Source of the DNA: a virus
IMG/VR virus record: IMGVR_UViG_3300017963_000204
Location: 1-64,000 of that record
Direction: 5' to 3' (one strand)
Length of the DNA: 64,000 bases
Below, piece by piece: positions 925 to 56,501 of this stretch. The translations under genes and the position numbers were made by a program. The notes under the pieces are model-generated. The model searched no databases. It had not been told where the DNA came from and saw nothing but the letters and a program-made list of their open reading frames with translations. The stretch's first letter is position 1. Each line of letters begins with the position of its first letter.

Positions 925-957
925 CGAAGAAAGGCCGCCCCCAGAAGGAAGCGGCCT
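925..957 (-). terminator. Probable terminator, ancestral end of the capsid transcript
   Basis: On the minus strand AGGCCGC (951-957) pairs with GCGGCCT (932-938) and is followed by TTCTTCGTCTT. It lies about 30 bases after the duplicated last codons of the capsid gene (987-1010), so it probably terminated the capsid operon before the homing-endonuclease segment arrived. Confidence 0.6.
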
Positions 958-986: not shown

Positions 987-1010
987 TTACAGGTTCTGCA
1001 CTCGCAGCTG
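987..1010 (-). repeat. Duplicate of the capsid gene 3' end
   Basis: These 24 bases are identical to 2278-2301, the last seven codons and stop of the major capsid gene (QLRVQNL-stop); the glycine codon before it is also kept with a silent change (GGA for GGG). The copy follows the gene at 1016-1303 and is not part of a longer capsid frame. It marks one edge of a ~1.29-kb segment that carries the homing endonuclease. Confidence 0.9.
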
Positions 1011-1015
1011 TCCGG

Positions 1016-1303
1016 TCACATATCCTTGCCCGGTTGCGGTCGCAACACGCCTTGCTTTCTCGCTTGCGCCTCAATCTGCTCCCATGCCACCGAATGAGGT
1101 AGACCAGAGGCCTTCACCACCTTGGTAACCGCCTTCGTGGCCCTTTGATAGAAACGTTCCTCTTGACGAGGCGAAGCATAACCGACAGACCCTAGATACA
1201 AACGCATCGCCTTGACTGCCGCATTCAGTACCCCCTTCGGAGGCATCTTCACCTCACTCAACAGCTCCCGCCCTCGTTCCACCGCTTCTGATAGCTTACT
1301 CAT
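1016..1303 (-). CDS. Probable internal (packaged) protein with capsid-targeting-like leader
   Basis: 95 residues, beginning MSKLSEAVERGRELLSE followed by VKMPPKG. The 17-residue leader matches those at 1-72 and 536-868 and ends in LSE, a fit to the T4-type protease site. The body is helical and basic with no known family. It sits inside the segment bounded by the duplicated capsid tail, next to the LAGLIDADG gene, so it may have arrived with that element or been pulled in from the neighbouring internal-protein genes. Confidence 0.75.
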   Translation of the reverse strand: MSKLSEAVERGRELLSEVKMPPKGVLNAAVKAMRLYLGSVGYASPRQEERFYQRATKAVTKVVKASGLPHSVAWEQIEAQARKQGVLRPQPGKDM

Positions 1304-1352
1304 GCTCCGCCCTCCTGTTGCGCTTCATACTGCCGGGCACATCCCAGAAGCG

Positions 1353-2195
1353 TCAAGCACAGGCTCTGCGCTTCCGCGTGTAACACGCCGAGCACAAGCC
1401 CTTCGCCAGCACCGGCTTCTCGTTACATTCTTCACAGAGCGTCCCCTTGCCCGTCTTCCGCCGCCCCTTCCACCAGCAGGCCTGACACTGGTCCTCGCGC
1501 GTGACCGGCCGCCCGCACGCGCACAAGGCCATCTGAACGTCCAAGTAGTGCTCTCTGGCTTCCCGGTAGACCTGATACTTCGTCTCGTTCCTGATATGCT
1601 CGGGCGCCTCGAGGTACAGATAGTCGAGCACGAGGATCGCCTTCGAACCCGTCCACTTCACGGAATACCAAAAAGAGCGGCCCTTACACTGCTCCACGAT
1701 CGCCGCCCTAGACACCCCTGTCCAGCGCATCAACCGCACACGCATGGTCTGGAGAAACGTGCGACACGCGCTCGAATACATAGCCAGAGGGTAGTCGTTG
1801 CCCTGCCCCTTCCCCCTCTTCGACAGAGACACGTGGCCATCGGCATCCCAGAGACCACGGAAGAAATGCGGCTCCAGCTCCCGCGGCAACTCCAGGGGCC
1901 ACCGGAGGTCATGCGTCTTCGGCCCGCAGATCCCAAAGCGCTCTTCCACAAGCTCTACGAGCTGCTTCGAGTCCGCATAGGCCTGAACAGCCCTGACGCC
2001 CTTCCTGATGCGCTTCGGCGTCTTCTCCGGGGCAAACAACGCCAGCCAACGCTCGGCTGTGGCGCGGTTCCCAACCATGCTGACACGGTAGGTTCCGCGC
2101 TTCGCGTAGACGTTCCCGTCCCCGTAGAGCACCCCGAGCCACCACGCCAGCTCAGGCGACCACCCTTCGAAAAAGCCCCAGTTGATCACCGCCAT
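1353..2195 (-). CDS. Free-standing LAGLIDADG homing endonuclease with C-terminal zinc ribbon
   Basis: 280 residues. Two LAGLIDADG helices are visible: WLGVLYGDGNV near residue 20 and FFRGLWDADGHV near residue 112, each ending in the catalytic Asp/Gly. After the nuclease core there are two Cys-rich zinc-ribbon-like units near the C-terminus (CACGRP...CQACWW and CEECNEK...CSACY), likely adding DNA contacts. Enzymes of this family make double-strand breaks at long target sites and spread themselves by repair. The gene has its own promoter (2237-2265), is not inside any host frame, and lies between the capsid gene and a copy of the capsid gene's last codons. The natural target is therefore probably the capsid 3' end of a related phage. 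Confidence 0.92.
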   Translation of the reverse strand: MAVINWGFFEGWSPELAWWLGVLYGDGNVYAKRGTYRVSMVGNRATAERWLALFAPEKTPKRIRKGVRAVQAYADSKQLVELVEERFGICGPKTHDLRWPLELPRELEPHFFRGLWDADGHVSLSKRGKGQGNDYPLAMYSSACRTFLQTMRVRLMRWTGVSRAAIVEQCKGRSFWYSVKWTGSKAILVLDYLYLEAPEHIRNETKYQVYREAREHYLDVQMALCACGRPVTREDQCQACWWKGRRKTGKGTLCEECNEKPVLAKGLCSACYTRKRRACA

Positions 2196-2198
2196 AAC

Positions 2199-2234
2199 GA
2201 AAAATCCCCACGCCGCAGTTACGGGACGTGGGGA
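2199..2234 (-). terminator. Rho-independent terminator after the capsid gene
   Basis: On the minus strand TCCCCACG (2227-2234) pairs with CGTGGGGA (2205-2212), then TTTTTC follows. It ends transcripts coming from the capsid operon. Its first arm coincides with the expected start point of the promoter at 2237-2265, so transcripts begun there lack a full stem and can read into the homing endonuclease gene. Confidence 0.75.
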
Positions 2235-2236
2235 CT

Positions 2237-2265
2237 ACTTTAGCTTCTTCGCGCGGGGGCGTCAA
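2237..2265 (-). promoter_or_regulatory. Promoter of the homing endonuclease gene
   Basis: TTGACG at 2260-2265 and TAAAGT at 2237-2242, spacing 17, directed at the gene at 1353-2195. Its placement just before the capsid terminator hairpin isolates the endonuclease from strong late transcription. Confidence 0.6.
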
Positions 2266-2277
2266 CCCCCGTCGTTA

Positions 2278-2301
2278 TTACAGGTTCTGCACTCGCAGCT
2301 G
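2278..2301 (-). repeat. Capsid gene 3' end, copy within the intact gene
   Basis: Last seven codons and stop of the major capsid gene, identical to 987-1010. The pair brackets the homing endonuclease gene and the small gene at 1016-1303. Confidence 0.9.
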
Positions 2302-3780
2302 CCCATAATATTCCGATCGGAGCAATTTCTTCGCGTATCGCGTGCGAAGACCCTTGCGGAAGCTCATGTCGTTCGGATCGAGGAAGGTCGGAGTTACCTG
2401 CAGCGGAATGTAGGGAGCCCACACGAACCCACTGTCGAGGTAGCTGGCGCCCTTCAGCCCGATCAGGGCCATGTCGCTCTGGAAGAAGGGGTCGATGTAG
2501 ACGACCCACTTGTTCATAAGCGTGCCGTTCTTGTACACGCCGAACTGACCGTGCTGCGTCATGGGACGCGGCATGTCGAGCGGCGCACCGAACTGCGGAC
2601 CCGAACTCCAAATGGGCCGGAAGTCGCCGTGGGTGGTCAGCTGCTCGATGAGCGCGCTGATCTCGGGCGAGGTGACGATCCAGTTGGCCGGCGCACGCAG
2701 CGTGGCTTTGTGGATGCCGTTGGACACCCGGCTGAAGCTCGTGATGATGCTCCGCAGGTGGTCGACCTCGCTGATCCCGGCGGGCGGGATGCGATCGAAG
2801 ACGTCGGTCGTCCCGGTGCTGGCCAGAAAGAGATCCGTGATGATCTCACGATCGATCTCGAGCGCCATCTCCTGGGCGGCGGCGGAAACGAGCTCGGCCT
2901 CGGCCTCGATACCCTGGAGCGCCCGGAGGTCCTCAGCGGCCTCGCTGGACCACAGAGCCTTCAGGCGACGGCTCTCGGCCTCGATGACGGCCTTCTTGAC
3001 GTCGAGCTTCATCCTCGGGAGGAGGGTGTTCAGCTCACCGTCGTAGCGGTAGTACATCTTGATCTGGTTGCCGTTGAGCGGCGCAGCATCGAAGAAGACT
3101 CCCGCAATCGCACCGTTCGAGTAGTTGAGCGTACCCGCAGTGAGATTGCTGGTGGCACCGGTGTCGGCGGTCCCGTCCGCAAGGAAGAAGCCTTCCTGCA
3201 CGGTGCTTCCGTCCGCAGCACTGATCTCACGGATGATCACCTGGATGCCGCGATCGGTGCTGGGCTTGTGGACCGGGGTGAACGACAGGCTGACCGACAG
3301 AGGCGTCTGACCAGACACGTAGTTGATGCCGTCACCAACTGCCAGAACCTCGCCGTCCACATACTCGGACGTGTAGTTCTGGTTGAAATCGCGCGGGAAG
3401 ATCTCCCCTGCCGTGACCGCACCCTTGGTGGTCGCGTACACGTAGTCCAGATAGAAGACTGCGCCTTGCGGTGCGGTCATCGGCTGAACAGAGACGATCT
3501 CGTTCGCGATGAGATTGGGGAACACCCGGGTGAGCACCGGGAAGATGAACTTGGTGAAGTAGCCCACGTTGATGGCGCGGGTCTCTTCCGACATGGCACG
3601 GAGGTGACGGGCCTGATTCTCGAACAGCATCGCCAGGCAGCCCTTGCGATACATATCGAAGGGCGTGCGGCCGGGCATGCCCTCCATCAGGTCGTCCCAC
3701 TTCTCCACCAGGACACTGACCAGTCGCTGGTCGGCGATCGTCCCCGTGCTGTCTTCGATGATCATTCGACGAGCTTCCAC
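2278..3780 (-). CDS. Major capsid protein, T4 gp23-like
   Basis: About 500 residues from a GTG at 3780, chosen because AAAGGAGGG lies five bases upstream; an upstream in-frame start at 3807 and an ATG at 3765 lack such a site. Hallmarks of the gp23 family: LFENQARHLRAM near residue 55, NEIVSVQPMTAPQGAVFYLDY near residue 95-115, and a C-terminal GFVWAPYIPLQVTPTF then DPNDM and an RY-containing tail. The protein forms the hexameric capsomers and is normally trimmed at its N-terminus by the prohead protease encoded directly upstream. Its last codons are duplicated at 987-1010, and its C-terminal motif recurs in the chimeric protein at 59738-61342. Confidence 0.93.
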   Translation of the reverse strand: MEARRMIIEDSTGTIADQRLVSVLVEKWDDLMEGMPGRTPFDMYRKGCLAMLFENQARHLRAMSEETRAINVGYFTKFIFPVLTRVFPNLIANEIVSVQPMTAPQGAVFYLDYVYATTKGAVTAGEIFPRDFNQNYTSEYVDGEVLAVGDGINYVSGQTPLSVSLSFTPVHKPSTDRGIQVIIREISAADGSTVQEGFFLADGTADTGATSNLTAGTLNYSNGAIAGVFFDAAPLNGNQIKMYYRYDGELNTLLPRMKLDVKKAVIEAESRRLKALWSSEAAEDLRALQGIEAEAELVSAAAQEMALEIDREIITDLFLASTGTTDVFDRIPPAGISEVDHLRSIITSFSRVSNGIHKATLRAPANWIVTSPEISALIEQLTTHGDFRPIWSSGPQFGAPLDMPRPMTQHGQFGVYKNGTLMNKWVVYIDPFFQSDMALIGLKGASYLDSGFVWAPYIPLQVTPTFLDPNDMSFRKGLRTRYAKKLLRSEYYGQLRVQNL

Positions 3781-3812
3781 CTCGCCCTCCTTTGGTGAGA
3801 ACAACAAACTGG

Positions 3813-5462
3813 TCAGGCCCCCGGGGGCAGCAGCGGCCTGAGATCCTCAAGTGAACATGATAATCCGTTGTAGCCCCCGGAATCCTCGGAGACGAGTTGA
3901 CGCCCGCCCCTCGGCTTCGGCCACGGCTCCTCTTCGTCGCGCGGCGTGCCTCTAAGACCACCGCCGAACTCTTCGCTCAGCCGTGCAGCAAGCTGCCGCA
4001 CAGACTCTCTTCCTCTCTTCTTCGGCCGACTCTCCTCGATGAGAGCATCGACCTCTTCCTTGGAGTCGATCGACTGGACCGACTCCAGGATGGACCGGAT
4101 CTTGTGCGCGTGCGGATTCGTATGCAGACGCTGCTCGGCGTACAGGCGAAGACCTGTGACCTTCAGGGCCTCCAGAGCCTTCTCCAGAGCCAACTCGAGC
4201 TTCCCACTGCGCTCAATGAGCTCGGCCCTCTCTTCCTGCGCCTTCTCGTGCCGCGCTTCCTGCAGAGACGCGAGGTCCCCCAGCTCAGCCAGCGCTGCGT
4301 CCACACGCTCCTGGAACTCTTCCACGGAAGCGTACTCCGTGACATCCCCGACTAGCCGCCTCACGCGATTGGCCTGTGGGTGCCCAGAGACAGCCCGCTC
4401 GAGGTAGCAGAGATAGCCGGCCACCTGGGCGGCCTCCATCATCTCTTCCACCTCCTCCTGGAGCTCCTCGATCCGGGCATCCCGCTCTTCCAGCTGCGCC
4501 CGGAGGTCCGCCAGCTCTGCGTCCTTTGCAGCCAGGACATCCACGGACTCCTCGGACAGCATGAACGGACTCAAGATTTGGGAGATCTGCTCGAGCGCCA
4601 GGGCCTTCTGCGTCTCCGCCGGGTCCGCCGAAAACTCCTCCCGGACCTGCTCCTCGACCTGCGCCCGAATTTCGCCCATGCGGGACAAGAGCATCTCGGA
4701 GAGCTTCGCCTCCATCTCGTCCCGGACCTGGACCTTCGCGATCTCGAGGGTGTCGTCATCGACGCCCTCGACGTGCACATCCGGCACCTCTTCGGTCAGC
4801 GGCGTCACCTTGAGCTCCACGCCCTCGAAGAGGAACCTGCCGGAACCGGTATCGACATCTTCGCTCACGAGCTCGGGGTAGGCATCCTGGTCCGCAGGAT
4901 CCGCAACGAAATCGAACGCGACAAGCCGGTAGTCCTCCTGGACCACGTCCTGCCCGCGCTGGTTGGGCTTGGTTGTCCCGTAGCCCCTGGAGCTGACGCC
5001 CACGCGGCAACCGCTCCTGAGAAGAGCCGCGAGGTCCTTGCCCCGGCTGGTGGGAAGAATCTCGGCTTCACCGTAGATCTTCCCGTCCTGGCCAACGGTC
5101 AAGTTGGTGATGATATGAGATACGCGGGAGAGCGCGGTCTTTCCATCGGAGGGGTGATCGAGCTCTCCGAACACCTTCCGCTGACCGAAGCTGCTCTCGA
5201 GACGCTTGATCTCACGCTCCCAGAGGGGCAGCGGGTAAAGGCGCTTGTTCTCTGTCGCCTCGTCATACCGCCCGAACTCTCCACGAACACGAACACGACC
5301 AGTACGCTTGTCCTCCAGAATCTCCAGAGGGGCCAGCTCGTCCAGAAACTCGCGAAGTACGGGAAGGTCGCCGTTGATGGCAACGGAGTCCTCTGTCAGC
5401 ACCTTGTCCGCCATTTGTCCTGCCTCCGAAACCGGCAAGCTGGTTTGTTGGACGCCCGCCAT
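3813..5462 (-). CDS. Prohead protease (T4 gp21-like) fused to a coiled-coil scaffold-like region
   Basis: 549 residues. Residues ~60-220 carry the gp21 protease signature: NKRLYPLPLW, FGELDHPSDG (catalytic His), GVSSRGYG (catalytic Ser) and DFVADPADQDAY. Residues ~240-510 are strongly acidic and predicted coiled coil, rich in Glu, Leu and Ala, as in phage core (gp22-like) scaffolds. In T4 protease and scaffold are separate genes, so this looks like a fusion or a long C-terminal extension. The protease matures capsid, core and packaged internal proteins at (L/I)xE sites. Start: ATG at 5462 (GAGGG six bases upstream); an in-frame ATG at 5414 with GGAGG is an alternative. Confidence 0.9.
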   Translation of the reverse strand: MAGVQQTSLPVSEAGQMADKVLTEDSVAINGDLPVLREFLDELAPLEILEDKRTGRVRVRGEFGRYDEATENKRLYPLPLWEREIKRLESSFGQRKVFGELDHPSDGKTALSRVSHIITNLTVGQDGKIYGEAEILPTSRGKDLAALLRSGCRVGVSSRGYGTTKPNQRGQDVVQEDYRLVAFDFVADPADQDAYPELVSEDVDTGSGRFLFEGVELKVTPLTEEVPDVHVEGVDDDTLEIAKVQVRDEMEAKLSEMLLSRMGEIRAQVEEQVREEFSADPAETQKALALEQISQILSPFMLSEESVDVLAAKDAELADLRAQLEERDARIEELQEEVEEMMEAAQVAGYLCYLERAVSGHPQANRVRRLVGDVTEYASVEEFQERVDAALAELGDLASLQEARHEKAQEERAELIERSGKLELALEKALEALKVTGLRLYAEQRLHTNPHAHKIRSILESVQSIDSKEEVDALIEESRPKKRGRESVRQLAARLSEEFGGGLRGTPRDEEEPWPKPRGGRQLVSEDSGGYNGLSCSLEDLRPLLPPGA

Positions 5463-9700: not shown

Positions 9701-12700
9701 CAGAAAGGTATGTCCGTTCCGCTTTGGATGAAGAAGTCCAGCACCGGGTCATTCTCCAGACTCGGCGACCGCAACTCCTCGTTCGCCAGCGCCGCTTGGT
9801 AGCCGGCTTCCAGTGCATGTTGCTGCTCTGCCATCCAGGGCATCGCATCAGGGTCGGCGTGGGTTGAGATGCCCTTGAGCATCGCGATCGGCATCTGCAC
9901 AGGCTGCTGCAGCAGAGAGTACAAGCACCCCGCAAGTGCATCGGACACATCCTTCGACCCGCCGTCCGGCTTCGTGACCTTCCGCCTCTCCCAATCCGCC
10001 TCGAGACCACGCAGCTGAGAGAACAACGGTTCATAGTAGTAGCAAGACACCCGGTCTTCGTACAGGGCCGACTTCACATTCTGGTAAGGATCCCAGGTTC
10101 TGTCCATGCTGACCTGGCTCGTAGAGAAACCAGCCTTGTCCAGCTGCTGCAGACTCTCAATAGCCTGCCACTGGTCCATGGACACGCTCCGCACCGGATA
10201 CCCGTGCTCGACGAACTCGTAGATCAGCTTCCGGTACAGCGCAAAGTCCAGCTCTCCTCCGACCGGGGGCACGATCTCGAGAACGAAGTCCACCACGAAC
10301 AGAGGGGCCTCGTCCGGGTACGCCGCCAGCTTCGAATCCCTGCGCTGGACCCGCTTCGTCCCCGCGATGTGGCCCATGCAGAACCCGGCAGAGCAGTTGT
10401 TGAGAGCGGGGTCGATGTGCACGTGACGGACAGCGTGGGGGTTGAGCTTCGGCTGCAACACCGTCACCCAGCGCCCCTTCGGATCCCGAACCTTCACCTT
10501 CTCGACCAGCTTCGACCAAACGACCCCGCCACCCTTCGACGGGTCCAAGACCTCGTGCGTAAAGGGGTGCTCGCGGGTGTCGTCCTTCATACCCAAAATC
10601 TTGTGGATCCGGTGAATGAACGGAGACATCGCGACCGTGGCCACCCCAGCGAAGTCCCGGATGCCGCCCTCCAAGTCGCCTTCGAAGTCCAACCGGAAGT
10701 CGTCCGGCACCTCGATGAGGACCGTCCGCTCTGGGGTGTTCTCCTGCAGGACCTTGAGCTCGAACTCGTCCTCCACGAACTTGCTCGGAATCTGCTCGTT
10801 CCCGCACAAGACAAAGAAGCTGTTGTCCATGCTGTGGTCTGGCTGCACATCCCAGAGGGAATAGTCCCGAACAAACACAGTAGGATCCGCCTTCGCCTTC
10901 CCGATCCGCTTCGCGAGGAAAGAGTCCCGGGTCGACTTCGACGACGGCAGGAAGAGCTTCCACTGCCTGCGATACCGAGAGATGAGCCGGCGCCGCAGGT
11001 TGTCGTAGATGTCCTTCGCCATGTTCACCACGCCGAAACGGTTGTCGTCCTTGCGGGAACGCCGCTTCGGCATGAAATTGGTCTCGTCGATGAGCGCCGC
11101 GATGGGAGACATACCCAGGGCGCTCCGGGGCGTCGTGGCCTTCGCGACCACCAGAACGTTGTTCGGGAACCGGATGTTCTTCTGCGTGGCCCGAAACGGG
11201 AAGTGCTCCGCGAAGTAGGGCGAAGCAGCGATCTTCCCGATGACGTTCTTGAGCACGACCTCTTTCGCGAGGTCCTCACTGGCGGAGAAGCCTGCCACAG
11301 ACACAGGCGTGTCCGCGCCGACACCCAGGGCTCTCTGAGGATCGTGCATGCACGAGAGCTCGTAGAGCACCCGACAGATGCCAATAGAACTCACGAAAGT
11401 GTTGTGAATGACCACCCCGTTCGCTACGAAGTTGTGGTCTCCAGGAACACTCAGGTCGAACACCTCCCGAACACCTGAATCCTCAACGCTCCGAACACGC
11501 TCCCATAGAATGTCCGACCCTGCATACCAGGCCCACTCCCCCGAGTATCCGGTAGCGTCCACAAACGCCTCAAAGCGACTGCGACTGCTGTGACGCCCTC
11601 CCAGAGCGAACCGCTTCTTCAGCCCGCACCCCCGATCTCCAAGTTCTTCAAACGCCGCAGATAGGCGCGCCTTGTCGACAGGCACCACATCCGTATTCGT
11701 CGACTCCCGAACGGAAGACACCGAAAAGCAGGCGTCCCGTAGAGCCGCGCTAGCGCTCTCCTTCCCCTTGATATCCCCGAGGCGCTCCAGAAACCTCAAA
11801 ACGGCCGAGCGACCACTGACGCTGAGCCGATAGGCCATCGAAGACCGCTTCTCCCCGAGATGCGTGTAAGTCTTCCGACAGGGCGCATGACGGGAAGGAA
11901 TACCCAAACGAAGGAGAAGAAACTGGATGTCCCGTACCATGCGCTCCGAGGCAAGCGTTATCTCCGCCGTCCTGTTGTGCAGGTTCAGATGACCATCACA
12001 CGACCAGATCCGGTTGAGGAACAGCGCTAGCTGGTCCTCCGGTAAACCGTAGAAAGCGGCCGGAACGCGCTTCCCCGCAGCGGTGTGCGCGAGATCGTAC
12101 CTCTCTACAATCCACTTCATGCCGCGCGAACGATACGTAGTCGCCTGACCCGAGTTCGCATCCTTGACCGGAACAGCCGAGGAAAGAGAGGGGTCGGTCA
12201 TCCGGGCTCGATCCGCGAGGCGCTCCGTACACTCCGCGTACTCTTTCAACACTTCCGGCTGCATATTCGTGAACGTGGGCATCGGACCCGTACACCCGCC
12301 GTCCGCCAGGAGATAGCCCACCACCTTCACCTCGTCGTCCGATACCGTCGGACCACTATCCGGGGAGGGCAAGGAGCGCGGGGTCGCAACCAGATCCGAC
12401 ACAGATATCGACTCGGCAGGGAGCCACCCACGCCCTGTCAATACGGGGTGATCTGTACTCAGAACAAGGGACTGCCCACTCATCAACCGCAGTGTCACGC
12501 ACGGCTTCCTGCCCGAAGGGAACGCGGTAGCGTCCGACACTCGAGACCTTCCCTCGGCGGAAAAAGACTGCACCTTGAGCGCCTCCAGGTCGCGGACGCG
12601 GGAGCGCCGCCCTGTAGAGACGTCGAACACTTCCGTGTCCCCATCGACACACTTCCCGTACCCGATAGCCCCCGTGAAGATGATCTCGTTGTAGTCGCCC

Positions 12701-51817: not shown

Positions 51818-52708
51818 TCAGGCAGCTTCAGCGTCCTGTTCGAGGTGGCTGCAGGGGATCCACTTCCCGTTCCAGGGAAGGAGTCCCTCTTGGCACTCCT
51901 CTTTGGTGGTGCAGTGTGCGCAGTGTGCGCAGAGCGCTTCGTCTACAGCGAGCTCTTCCAGGAAGGTAGCGGTGATGCCGGCGGCGATGTTCGAAGCACC
52001 GGTGCTGGTCGTGGTCTTGGGGGTGTCTTCGGTCTCGGCGTTGAAGGTGTCCACGATGCCCGTGGCAACGCTCGAGGCCGCTTCTTCGTGGGAGGGCTCG
52101 GGAGTAGGCGCGGTGTCCGTCGCAAGGTCCAGAGCGTCGTTCTCGGGACCTTCGGCGTTCCACTCAGCTTCCATTTCCGCCATGGCTTCGTGTAGGGCGC
52201 CCGGGTCCTTGGTTTCTTCGGCTTCCGCCTGGGCCTTCGCCTCGGCCTTGAGCTGCTTGTCGAGAGCCTTCCAGGAAGCGCCGCCACAGTGGGGGCCCAT
52301 GCCGAGGTGCACGCTCACAGGGTGCGTGAGGTCTTTGTTGCAGTGGCTGCAGGTACCTTCCAGGAGGTACTCGAGCCCACTCTTCGTGCCCTTGTCGGTG
52401 TTGTTCAGGAGGGCCGCCATCTTCAAGAGGCTTCCGTCCTTCTTCGCCTGGGAAGTCCAGACGCGAACCTTGCCGTCTTTCACCCAGCCGAAGCGGCGCC
52501 AGTGCGTCCAGTTTTCACGGTCGGGGCCGATGAGAAGGGAAACGACGCGCTCGCCCTTCAAGTAGTCAGGAGCGCTGGAATTCTTCTTCACCACCGCGAT
52601 CTTGAAGGTCCGGTGCTGACCTGACTTGGTGTTGTTGATGGTGATGTAGCCGTTGTGAGTGGCGAGAAGAGCGGTCGTGAAAGCGATATGGTTGATGGCG
52701 GCGTTCAT
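51818..52708 (-). CDS. Hypothetical zinc-binding protein (DUF6011-like N-terminal half)
   Basis: 296 residues. The segment GTCSHCNKDLTHPVSVHLGMGPHCGG matches a small CxxC...C type zinc element seen in many phage and actinobacterial hypothetical proteins (as I recall, DUF6011). A long acidic, Ala/Thr-rich linker follows, then CAHCAHCTTKEECQEG and a CSH motif near the end. It has the class I promoter and hairpin leader. Function unknown, probably expressed early. Confidence 0.7.
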   Translation of the reverse strand: MNAAINHIAFTTALLATHNGYITINNTKSGQHRTFKIAVVKKNSSAPDYLKGERVVSLLIGPDRENWTHWRRFGWVKDGKVRVWTSQAKKDGSLLKMAALLNNTDKGTKSGLEYLLEGTCSHCNKDLTHPVSVHLGMGPHCGGASWKALDKQLKAEAKAQAEAEETKDPGALHEAMAEMEAEWNAEGPENDALDLATDTAPTPEPSHEEAASSVATGIVDTFNAETEDTPKTTTSTGASNIAAGITATFLEELAVDEALCAHCAHCTTKEECQEGLLPWNGKWIPCSHLEQDAEAA

Positions 52709-52925: not shown

Positions 52926-53387
52926 CTACAGAGAGTAGACAGGCTGATACTGTGCCTCTTCTACTTCTTCTGTGTCCAGGGTGAACTTCTTCGTTCCGGT
53001 CTTCACCGTCACGTTAGAGAAGTCGTCCTCGAGAGACCACTCCTGCTCATCGACGCTCAGATCGGCGTCGACCTCGACCTCGACCTCGACCTCGACCTGG
53101 CCGGACACCTCATCGACACCGACGGCCTCTTCCCAGGCGTCGCGGTCGATGATCGCAATCCACTTGTAGCGGCCTTTGATGAGTGTGGCGTCGCCGGAAA
53201 CTCCGATCATAGAGAGGTATGTTTCCAGGATCTGGCGGTCGAAGCGGTGGTACAGCTTCACCACGATGAAGTCCTCGGGGGACTTGCGGTGGGGGCGGTA
53301 GTGGATGCCCTTGATCCCTTCGATGAAAGAGATCACGGCGTTCTGGGTGTTGATGTCGGCGATGGCGTTGGTGGTGATGTCGTTCAT
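52926..53387 (-). CDS. Hypothetical protein with a slippage-prone VE repeat
   Basis: 153 residues, acidic. A beta/alpha start (FIVVKLYHRFDRQILETYL, YKWIAIIDRDAWEEAV) is followed by VEVEVEVEV encoded by five 6-base repeats (53068-53097). Class I promoter and hairpin leader. Function unknown. Confidence 0.65.
   Translation of the reverse strand: MNDITTNAIADINTQNAVISFIEGIKGIHYRPHRKSPEDFIVVKLYHRFDRQILETYLSMIGVSGDATLIKGRYKWIAIIDRDAWEEAVGVDEVSGQVEVEVEVEVDADLSVDEQEWSLEDDFSNVTVKTGTKKFTLDTEEVEEAQYQPVYSL
53068..53097. repeat. Hexanucleotide tandem repeat (TCGACC x5)
   Basis: Five exact copies inside the gene at 52926-53387. Changes in copy number keep the frame (two residues per unit). Confidence 0.9.
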
Positions 53388-56303: not shown

Positions 56304-56501
56304 CTACTCATCTTCGATGATGCGAAGGTTCTCGACCGGCTCACTCCATCGAAGCGCATTTCCGTTCCACAGCGTGCCTTCGACGTCGACGACTGTGCCA
56401 CCAGCGATGCGGCGAGGGCGTCGCAGGATTGTCACGATGCCGCAATGGATCGCGAGGAACTTCGAGCCGGGCTGGATCTGAGTGCATTTTGGGCGTGCCA
56501 T
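56304..56501 (-). CDS. Small hypothetical protein
   Basis: 65 residues from ATG at 56501, directly after a hairpin leader. SH3-like beta-barrel pattern (KFLAIHCGIVTILRRPRRIAGG, VVDVEGTLWNG). Function unknown. Preceded by a 182-base structured leader. Confidence 0.65.
   Translation of the reverse strand: MARPKCTQIQPGSKFLAIHCGIVTILRRPRRIAGGTVVDVEGTLWNGNALRWSEPVENLRIIEDE

Follow-up and report, generated by a model that had tools for sequence, protein, structure and literature searches.

A LAGLIDADG endonuclease gene bracketed by a duplicated capsid gene end: a likely homing element carrying its own capsid tail

A LAGLIDADG endonuclease gene lies directly downstream of the major capsid gene in the DNA of the T4-like phage described here. 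Judging from the sequence, the segment that contains it is very likely a free-standing homing element that is aimed at the capsid 3' end and carries its own capsid tail. The window, that is, the whole stretch of DNA analyzed, comprises the first 64 kb of a viral record of 128,887 bp. A capsid 3' end that occurs twice and brackets an endonuclease gene was found in the window and again at the loci L019/L020, and a related clade contained near-identical genomes with and without an endonuclease gene at this place.

Results

The capsid gene end is present twice in the window

The sequence TTACAGGTTCTGCACTCGCAGCTG (24 bases) is present in two exact copies in the window. The first-pass annotation had reported that the last capsid codons, QLRVQNL-stop, at 2278-2301 are repeated without change at 987-1010, and this identity was confirmed. 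It had also described the glycine codon before the repeat as conserved. The residue is indeed kept but the codon is not identical, and the match is 26 of 27 bases once this codon is added (the mismatch CCC/TCC reads GGG/GGA on the minus strand). The upstream copy completes the capsid reading frame with its own stop, and the remnant copy sits past the stop of the preceding gene. We found three exact direct repeats of at least 24 bases in the 64 kb, among them the capsid-end pair; one of the other two was a 6-base tandem run. By our estimate, about 1e-5 such repeat pairs would be expected by chance in 64 kb, and based on this survey and this expectation a chance repeat was rejected. The features of the segment are listed in Table 1.

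Table 1. Features in and around the duplicated capsid end, in window coordinates
Feature	Position	Strand	Remarks
Major capsid gene, gp23 family, 509 aa; putative target gene of the element	2278..3807	-	ORF; Pfam Gp23 PF07068, E=3e-67
Last 16 capsid codons KLLRSEYYGQLRVQNL; presumed element-borne tail	2281..2328	-	More A/T-ending than the gene body
Repeat copy 1	2278..2301	-	Capsid end QLRVQNL-stop in use; exact repeat
Sigma-70-like promoter	2237..2265	-	TTGACG-17-TAAAGT; directly past the capsid stop
Hairpin with T-run	2203..2236	-	-21.1 kcal/mol, z=-3.1; just ahead of the endonuclease ATG
LAGLIDADG homing endonuclease (predicted), 280 aa, intact	1353..2195	-	PF14528 (LAGLIDADG_3), 2.2e-6
95-aa gene with leader MSKLSEAVERGRELL / MSKLSEAVERGRELLSEVK; presumed cargo	1016..1303	-	ORF; leader recurs in neighboring genes
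Repeat copy 2	987..1010, GGA Gly codon to 1013	-	Putative stranded original capsid end; starts 2 nt past the stop of the 95-aa gene
Intrinsic terminator past the stranded end	932..957	-	11-pair stem and T-rich tail

Two further repeats were observed in the window. A direct repeat of about 28 bases occurs upstream of a small gene at 428-455 and at 52705, about 19 bases of which are also present at 56501; these sites probably have a promoter or a ribosome-binding leader in common. A short 6-base tandem repeat (CGACCT) is located at 53068-53098.

Content of the segment between the two copies

The contents earlier proposed for the segment were found except in one point. A promoter-like site, a hairpin, the LAGLIDADG gene, and the leader-bearing 95-aa gene are all located between the two copies, but the strongest intrinsic terminator (957-932) lies beyond the second copy. 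We presume that it was the original capsid terminator. The T-run of the hairpin at 2203-2236 extends nearly to the start codon of the endonuclease gene.

The endonuclease scored 28.3 bits against PF14528, above the curated cut-off of 22.5. It contains the motifs LYGDG and LWDADG as well as a C-terminal Cys-rich segment. Both acidic motifs are conserved in A2, and the aspartate is invariant in LYGDG and in LWDADG. Modeling of the 280-aa protein with AlphaFold2 gave a mean pLDDT of 81, and the top Foldseek matches of the model in the PDB were I-Tsp061I, E-DreI, I-AniI, and I-DmoI (E about 1e-7 to 1e-6). By its domain, motifs, and modeled fold, the protein thus fits a LAGLIDADG homing endonuclease. 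No named phage relatives of it were found.

The leader of the 95-aa gene has the form MSxLSExIxxGRxLLxEA and is common to five genes, three in the window (1247-1303, 812-868, and 16-72, all minus strand) and two in L004 (near 11930 and 12285). It contains an LxE or FxE motif, which we take to resemble the cleavage rule of the T4 prohead protease. Perhaps the leader directs internal head proteins to the capsid.

A second placement of the duplicated end

From the capsid searches, 69 distinct loci were obtained in which the capsid end could be read. A downstream copy of at least 8 capsid-end codons was found in two unrelated placements among them, the window (with L004, which has the same element) and L019/L020. 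Between the two, the capsid proteins are 61% identical and the endonucleases about 45% identical. The endonuclease gene of L020 begins 39 nt past the capsid stop. There is no 95-aa gene in L020; this additional gene of the window counts against the homing model. After the TGA of the endonuclease gene the sequence reads GGTACGGGAACCTCCGGGTCGTGAACCTCTAG, which encodes YGNLRVVNL-stop again, starts 1-2 nt past the endonuclease stop, and is followed by a terminator-like hairpin. There are seven differences between the two YGNLRVVNL-stop copies of L019/L020, and all of them are synonymous. Measured in the capsid frame, the right-hand junctions of the window and L020 lie no more than about 3 nt apart. 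Thus, a layout with an endonuclease gene and a second capsid end recurs independently of the window. Relatives carrying the duplicate without an endonuclease had been named beforehand as evidence against an inserted element, but an 8-codon capsid-end duplicate without an endonuclease was present in none of the 69 loci.

Codon spelling of the capsid tail in the window

Six of the last 16 capsid codons in the window end in A or T, compared with 16% in the gene body (p=0.035). Relative to L001, synonymous changes were found in 10 of 15 tail codons vs 31% (p=0.005), a value that 13 of the 389 windows compared also reached. The codons just upstream of the repeat are AAA TTG CTC CGA TCG GAA TAT TAT GGG. 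These data are weak signs of recoding upstream of the 24-bp repeat. A divergent and mostly synonymous tail, as in the fungal type of mobile ORF discussed below, is clear in L020 and in L009-L013 and weak in the window. Moreover, the 24 bp are identical in both window copies, and so they would give no protection if the last codons belong to the target. Since the signs of recoding are weak and the last 24 bp are identical, import in the window is argued from the layout and from the comparison with L020, and we infer that copy 1, not copy 2, is the imported one.

Alternatively, the phage could have duplicated its own end in place, a broken end having been copied during repair with no import, and foreign tails would be confined to other clades. 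The identity of the window copies over 24 bp, unlike the situation in L020, is what such a duplication would give. However, the codons just upstream are more A/T-ending than the gene body, the glycine codon differs (GGG/GGA), and the homologous element in L020 has a divergent tail. We therefore regard in-place duplication as unlikely and an imported tail as the better reading of the window.

Filled and empty sites in a related clade

In a related clade, L008 has an empty site, while the sites of L009, L012, and L023 contain genes of a second LAGLIDADG family, whose proteins have HTH-like segments at the N-terminus. L008 is about 99% identical to L009 and L012 in the capsid body and 97-99% identical in the downstream flank. 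L008 and L012 are 98.6% identical in the region that leads up to the end of the capsid gene; downstream of it the identity is 99.1% over 764 bp, and the insert in L012 relative to L008 is about 1.06 kb. In the last 300 nt of the capsid gene, the differences between these two are confined to the final 43 nt and are all synonymous. The last 15 codons of L008 differ from those of L009 and L012 at 10-11 synonymous positions. At the other end, the native CCTCTGA forms the end of the endonuclease ORF; in L009, L010, and L012 this ORF closes with the CTC TGA of L008 as its final codon and stop. The first-pass annotation had predicted that in element-free relatives the capsid gene would run straight into the flanking sequence, and the comparison of L008 with L009 and L012 bears this out base by base.

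In intronless homing of the T4 Seg/Mob type, the target would be in the adjacent gene and the element-bearing allele would resist cutting through its different sequence. Recoding of the adjacent gene was seen in close pairs as a synonymous excess in the tail. In L008/L009, 11 of 14 synonymous codons differ in the tail vs 1.7% in the body (p=1e-17), and in L010/L013 13 of 14 differ vs 1.9% (p=6e-22). Over 19 close pairs the synonymous difference per codon is about 0.45 in the last 15 codons vs about 0.05 along the gene, and the excess starts just past a conserved TAC GCG AAG AAG. Outside the affected clade, no tail excess was found in the close pairs L073/L074 (0/14), L076/L078 (0/14), and L001/L003 (0/15), and most close pairs elsewhere in the tree also lack it. 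General hypervariability of the capsid tail was ruled out by these control pairs. In the L009/L012 family, recoding begins some 40 nt before the point of insertion. This is more than one LAGLIDADG site needs, and it counts against the homing model.

No empty allele was found in the lineage of the window itself; L001-L003 have no endonuclease gene and have unrelated DNA after the capsid gene. In these three loci a tRNA-like cluster, recognized by eye, lies on the opposite strand directly beyond the capsid terminator. In viral_contigs the 24-mer was present only in the contig carrying the window's element, and a motif search returned only contigs that were already known.

Possible relics, variants, and a third copy

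L064 is empty, and its tail differs from that of L130 only in the last 5 codons and the stop. L130 has a second-family endonuclease gene after the capsid gene (3923-4891) that is broken by a frameshift, and by its sequence it is a decaying element. L013 contains a short scar that retains the element start and is similar to L130. The tail of L011 combines two spellings as a mosaic, and a 358-aa protein with similarity to DUF5872 and PAP2 replaces the endonuclease. L013, L130, and L011 look like later stages or relics of insertion.

L004 extends beyond the start of the window and contains a third, partial capsid end, GTGCAGAACCTGTAAGCGC, at 9863-9881. This copy is joined to a 73-bp duplication (9794-9866) that is 98.6% identical to a gene at 11003-11075. 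GCGC comes directly after both downstream copies of the capsid end but not after the copy in use. The third copy fits successive insertions at one place, each pushing the previous end downstream, although an assembly error in L004 is possible. The history is thus more complex than a single insertion. The contig of the window ends in the 73-bp repeat.

In L065/L107, which have no endonuclease gene, the tail spelling differs at 7 of 14 codons and the 30 bp past the stop are different; the tail is possibly a further scar.

These cases bear on the view that the endonuclease is a passenger of recombination. The capsid 3' end would then be an ordinary recombination boundary where foreign DNA is joined through short homology, with the duplicate as a by-product and the endonuclease gene carried along. 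The third copy in L004 with its joined duplication of another gene, the swapped tail and PAP2/DUF5872 cargo gene of L011 without an endonuclease, and the differing tails of L065/L107 all speak for it. However, the endonuclease-free cases can also be explained as relics, and two LAGLIDADG families occupy exactly this point in many lineages. Furthermore, the swaps are limited to the last 5-15 codons, and the flanks on either side are almost identical; repair of a local break would be expected to give this pattern. We thus consider the passenger view improbable, to about the same degree as in-place duplication, and prefer a homing element.

Separately, L045 (+112 to +1960 after the capsid gene), L108 (+240 to +2067), and L040 (+166 to +2413) each contain a single ORF with a LAGLIDADG domain related to that of the window and a DNA methyltransferase-like part. 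The latter matched Pfam N6_N4_Mtase in L045 (1e-4) and L040 (3e-6) and was recognized by eye in L108. The L040 ORF also has a GIY-YIG-looking N-terminus. These fusions could possibly provide self-protection by methylation.

Discussion

How the element would spread

Introns and inteins are safe from their own enzymes, since insertion splits the recognition site and splicing rescues the gene. Without splicing the gene must be rebuilt in the DNA, and so loss of the site would require synonymous changes or a shift of its other half downstream. We propose that the uninterrupted allele would read YYG-QLRVQNL-stop straight into GCGCTGATC and that the LAGLIDADG enzyme would cut it near these codons. 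Repair from an element-bearing phage would then copy in the endonuclease gene together with replacement last capsid codons and a stop, leaving the capsid protein unchanged. The element-bearing allele would escape cutting either through its synonymously different tail or because the insertion interrupts the site, and the recipient's last codons, stop, and terminator would be stranded downstream (987-1013 and 932-957). Cleavage at the capsid end, repair-driven copying, and protection by recoding are inferred steps. The proposal that an element entered at the capsid 3' end and rebuilt the frame with its own copy of the end is supported mainly by relatives (L019/L020, and L008 vs L009/L012). Donor and recipient DNA may pair at the short conserved block that precedes the tail, and such pairing would account for the left boundary being shared.

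A broader idea, which we put forward only tentatively, is that roughly the last 15 codons of the capsid gene might form a standing homing hotspot in these T4-like phages. Distinct endonuclease lineages would alternate there, each with its own synonymous tail spelling as an immunity tag against the others. Cargo genes (leader-bearing small proteins, PAP2-like proteins) would enter too, and the endonuclease-methyltransferase fusions may use methylation rather than recoding to protect themselves.

A group I intron or intein, with the capsid gene spliced onto the second copy and an intron-encoded endonuclease, is highly implausible and was rejected: a gp23-type capsid gene of Bacillus phage SP-15 is interrupted by an endonuclease gene and annotated as joined, but the region of the window matched no group I or II intron model of Rfam even at E up to 5, the first copy finishes the protein with its own stop and makes splicing unnecessary, and the capsid ORF stops before a separate, unfused endonuclease ORF with its own start.

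The homing model suggests that a selfish gene with neither intron nor intein can settle in an essential viral gene by synonymous replacement of its last codons. Because filled and empty sites occur in near-identical pairs, the model can be tested directly. Since gp23 is a standard phylogeny marker, capsid trees should leave the tail out, and the stranded capsid end should not be annotated as a gene.

Comparison with known systems

The tail-carrying layout was not reported for phages in the literature searched, the coverage of which was incomplete. We also found no duplicated ends at other genes beside homologous endonucleases in about 40 loci scanned. A version that recurs in phage capsid genes and has a sharply bounded recoded tail looks new.

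In phage Aeh1, the homing endonuclease gene mobE splits nrdA, an essential gene that remains functional, as here. Unlike the capsid gene of the window, nrdA is presumably split into two parts that are both used, rather than rebuilt with a replacement tail. Bacillus phage SP-15 (KT624200) resembles the window in having an endonuclease associated with its capsid gene, but there the endonuclease is in an internal interruption and no end is duplicated.

In T4, segD is located between genes 23 and 24 in antisense orientation, and its target is not known (PMC2988022). Intronless homing by SegD and the other Seg and Mob endonucleases is similar to the window in that a free-standing endonuclease gene is next to gene 23 and the usual target is a neighboring essential gene (PMC2988022). 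In contrast to the window endonuclease, SegD is a GIY-YIG enzyme encoded in antisense. Compared with slur03, gene 23 of T4 had no significant tail recoding (2 of the last 25 codons), and no duplicated gene 23 end was seen. Thus, segD was ruled out as a mirror case.

The closest known kind is probably the mobile ORF of fungal mitochondria with a foreign C-terminus, and by our analysis the phage case appears to work likewise. In atp6, atp9, cox2, and nad3 of Glomus sp. mitochondria, an endonuclease ORF is present with an imported C-terminus, and the native one is stranded, as in atp6 of Allomyces macrogynus (PMC3630166). A DNA change that was only synonymous has been reported at an atp6 C-terminus (PMC3630166). 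As in the fungal ORFs, where the endonuclease is of the LAGLIDADG or GIY-YIG type, the phage segment has a free-standing endonuclease gene after the host gene, a presumably imported in-frame C-terminus, and the putative native end downstream. It differs in that the host gene is a capsid gene, the tail is only about 5-16 codons, and the right-hand junction abuts or uses the stop of the element gene. Moreover, in the phages several endonuclease types occur at one site, and empty and filled alleles are found in near-identical genomes. The segment would be a phage counterpart of a layout that, in the literature searched, has so far been reported from fungal mitochondria.
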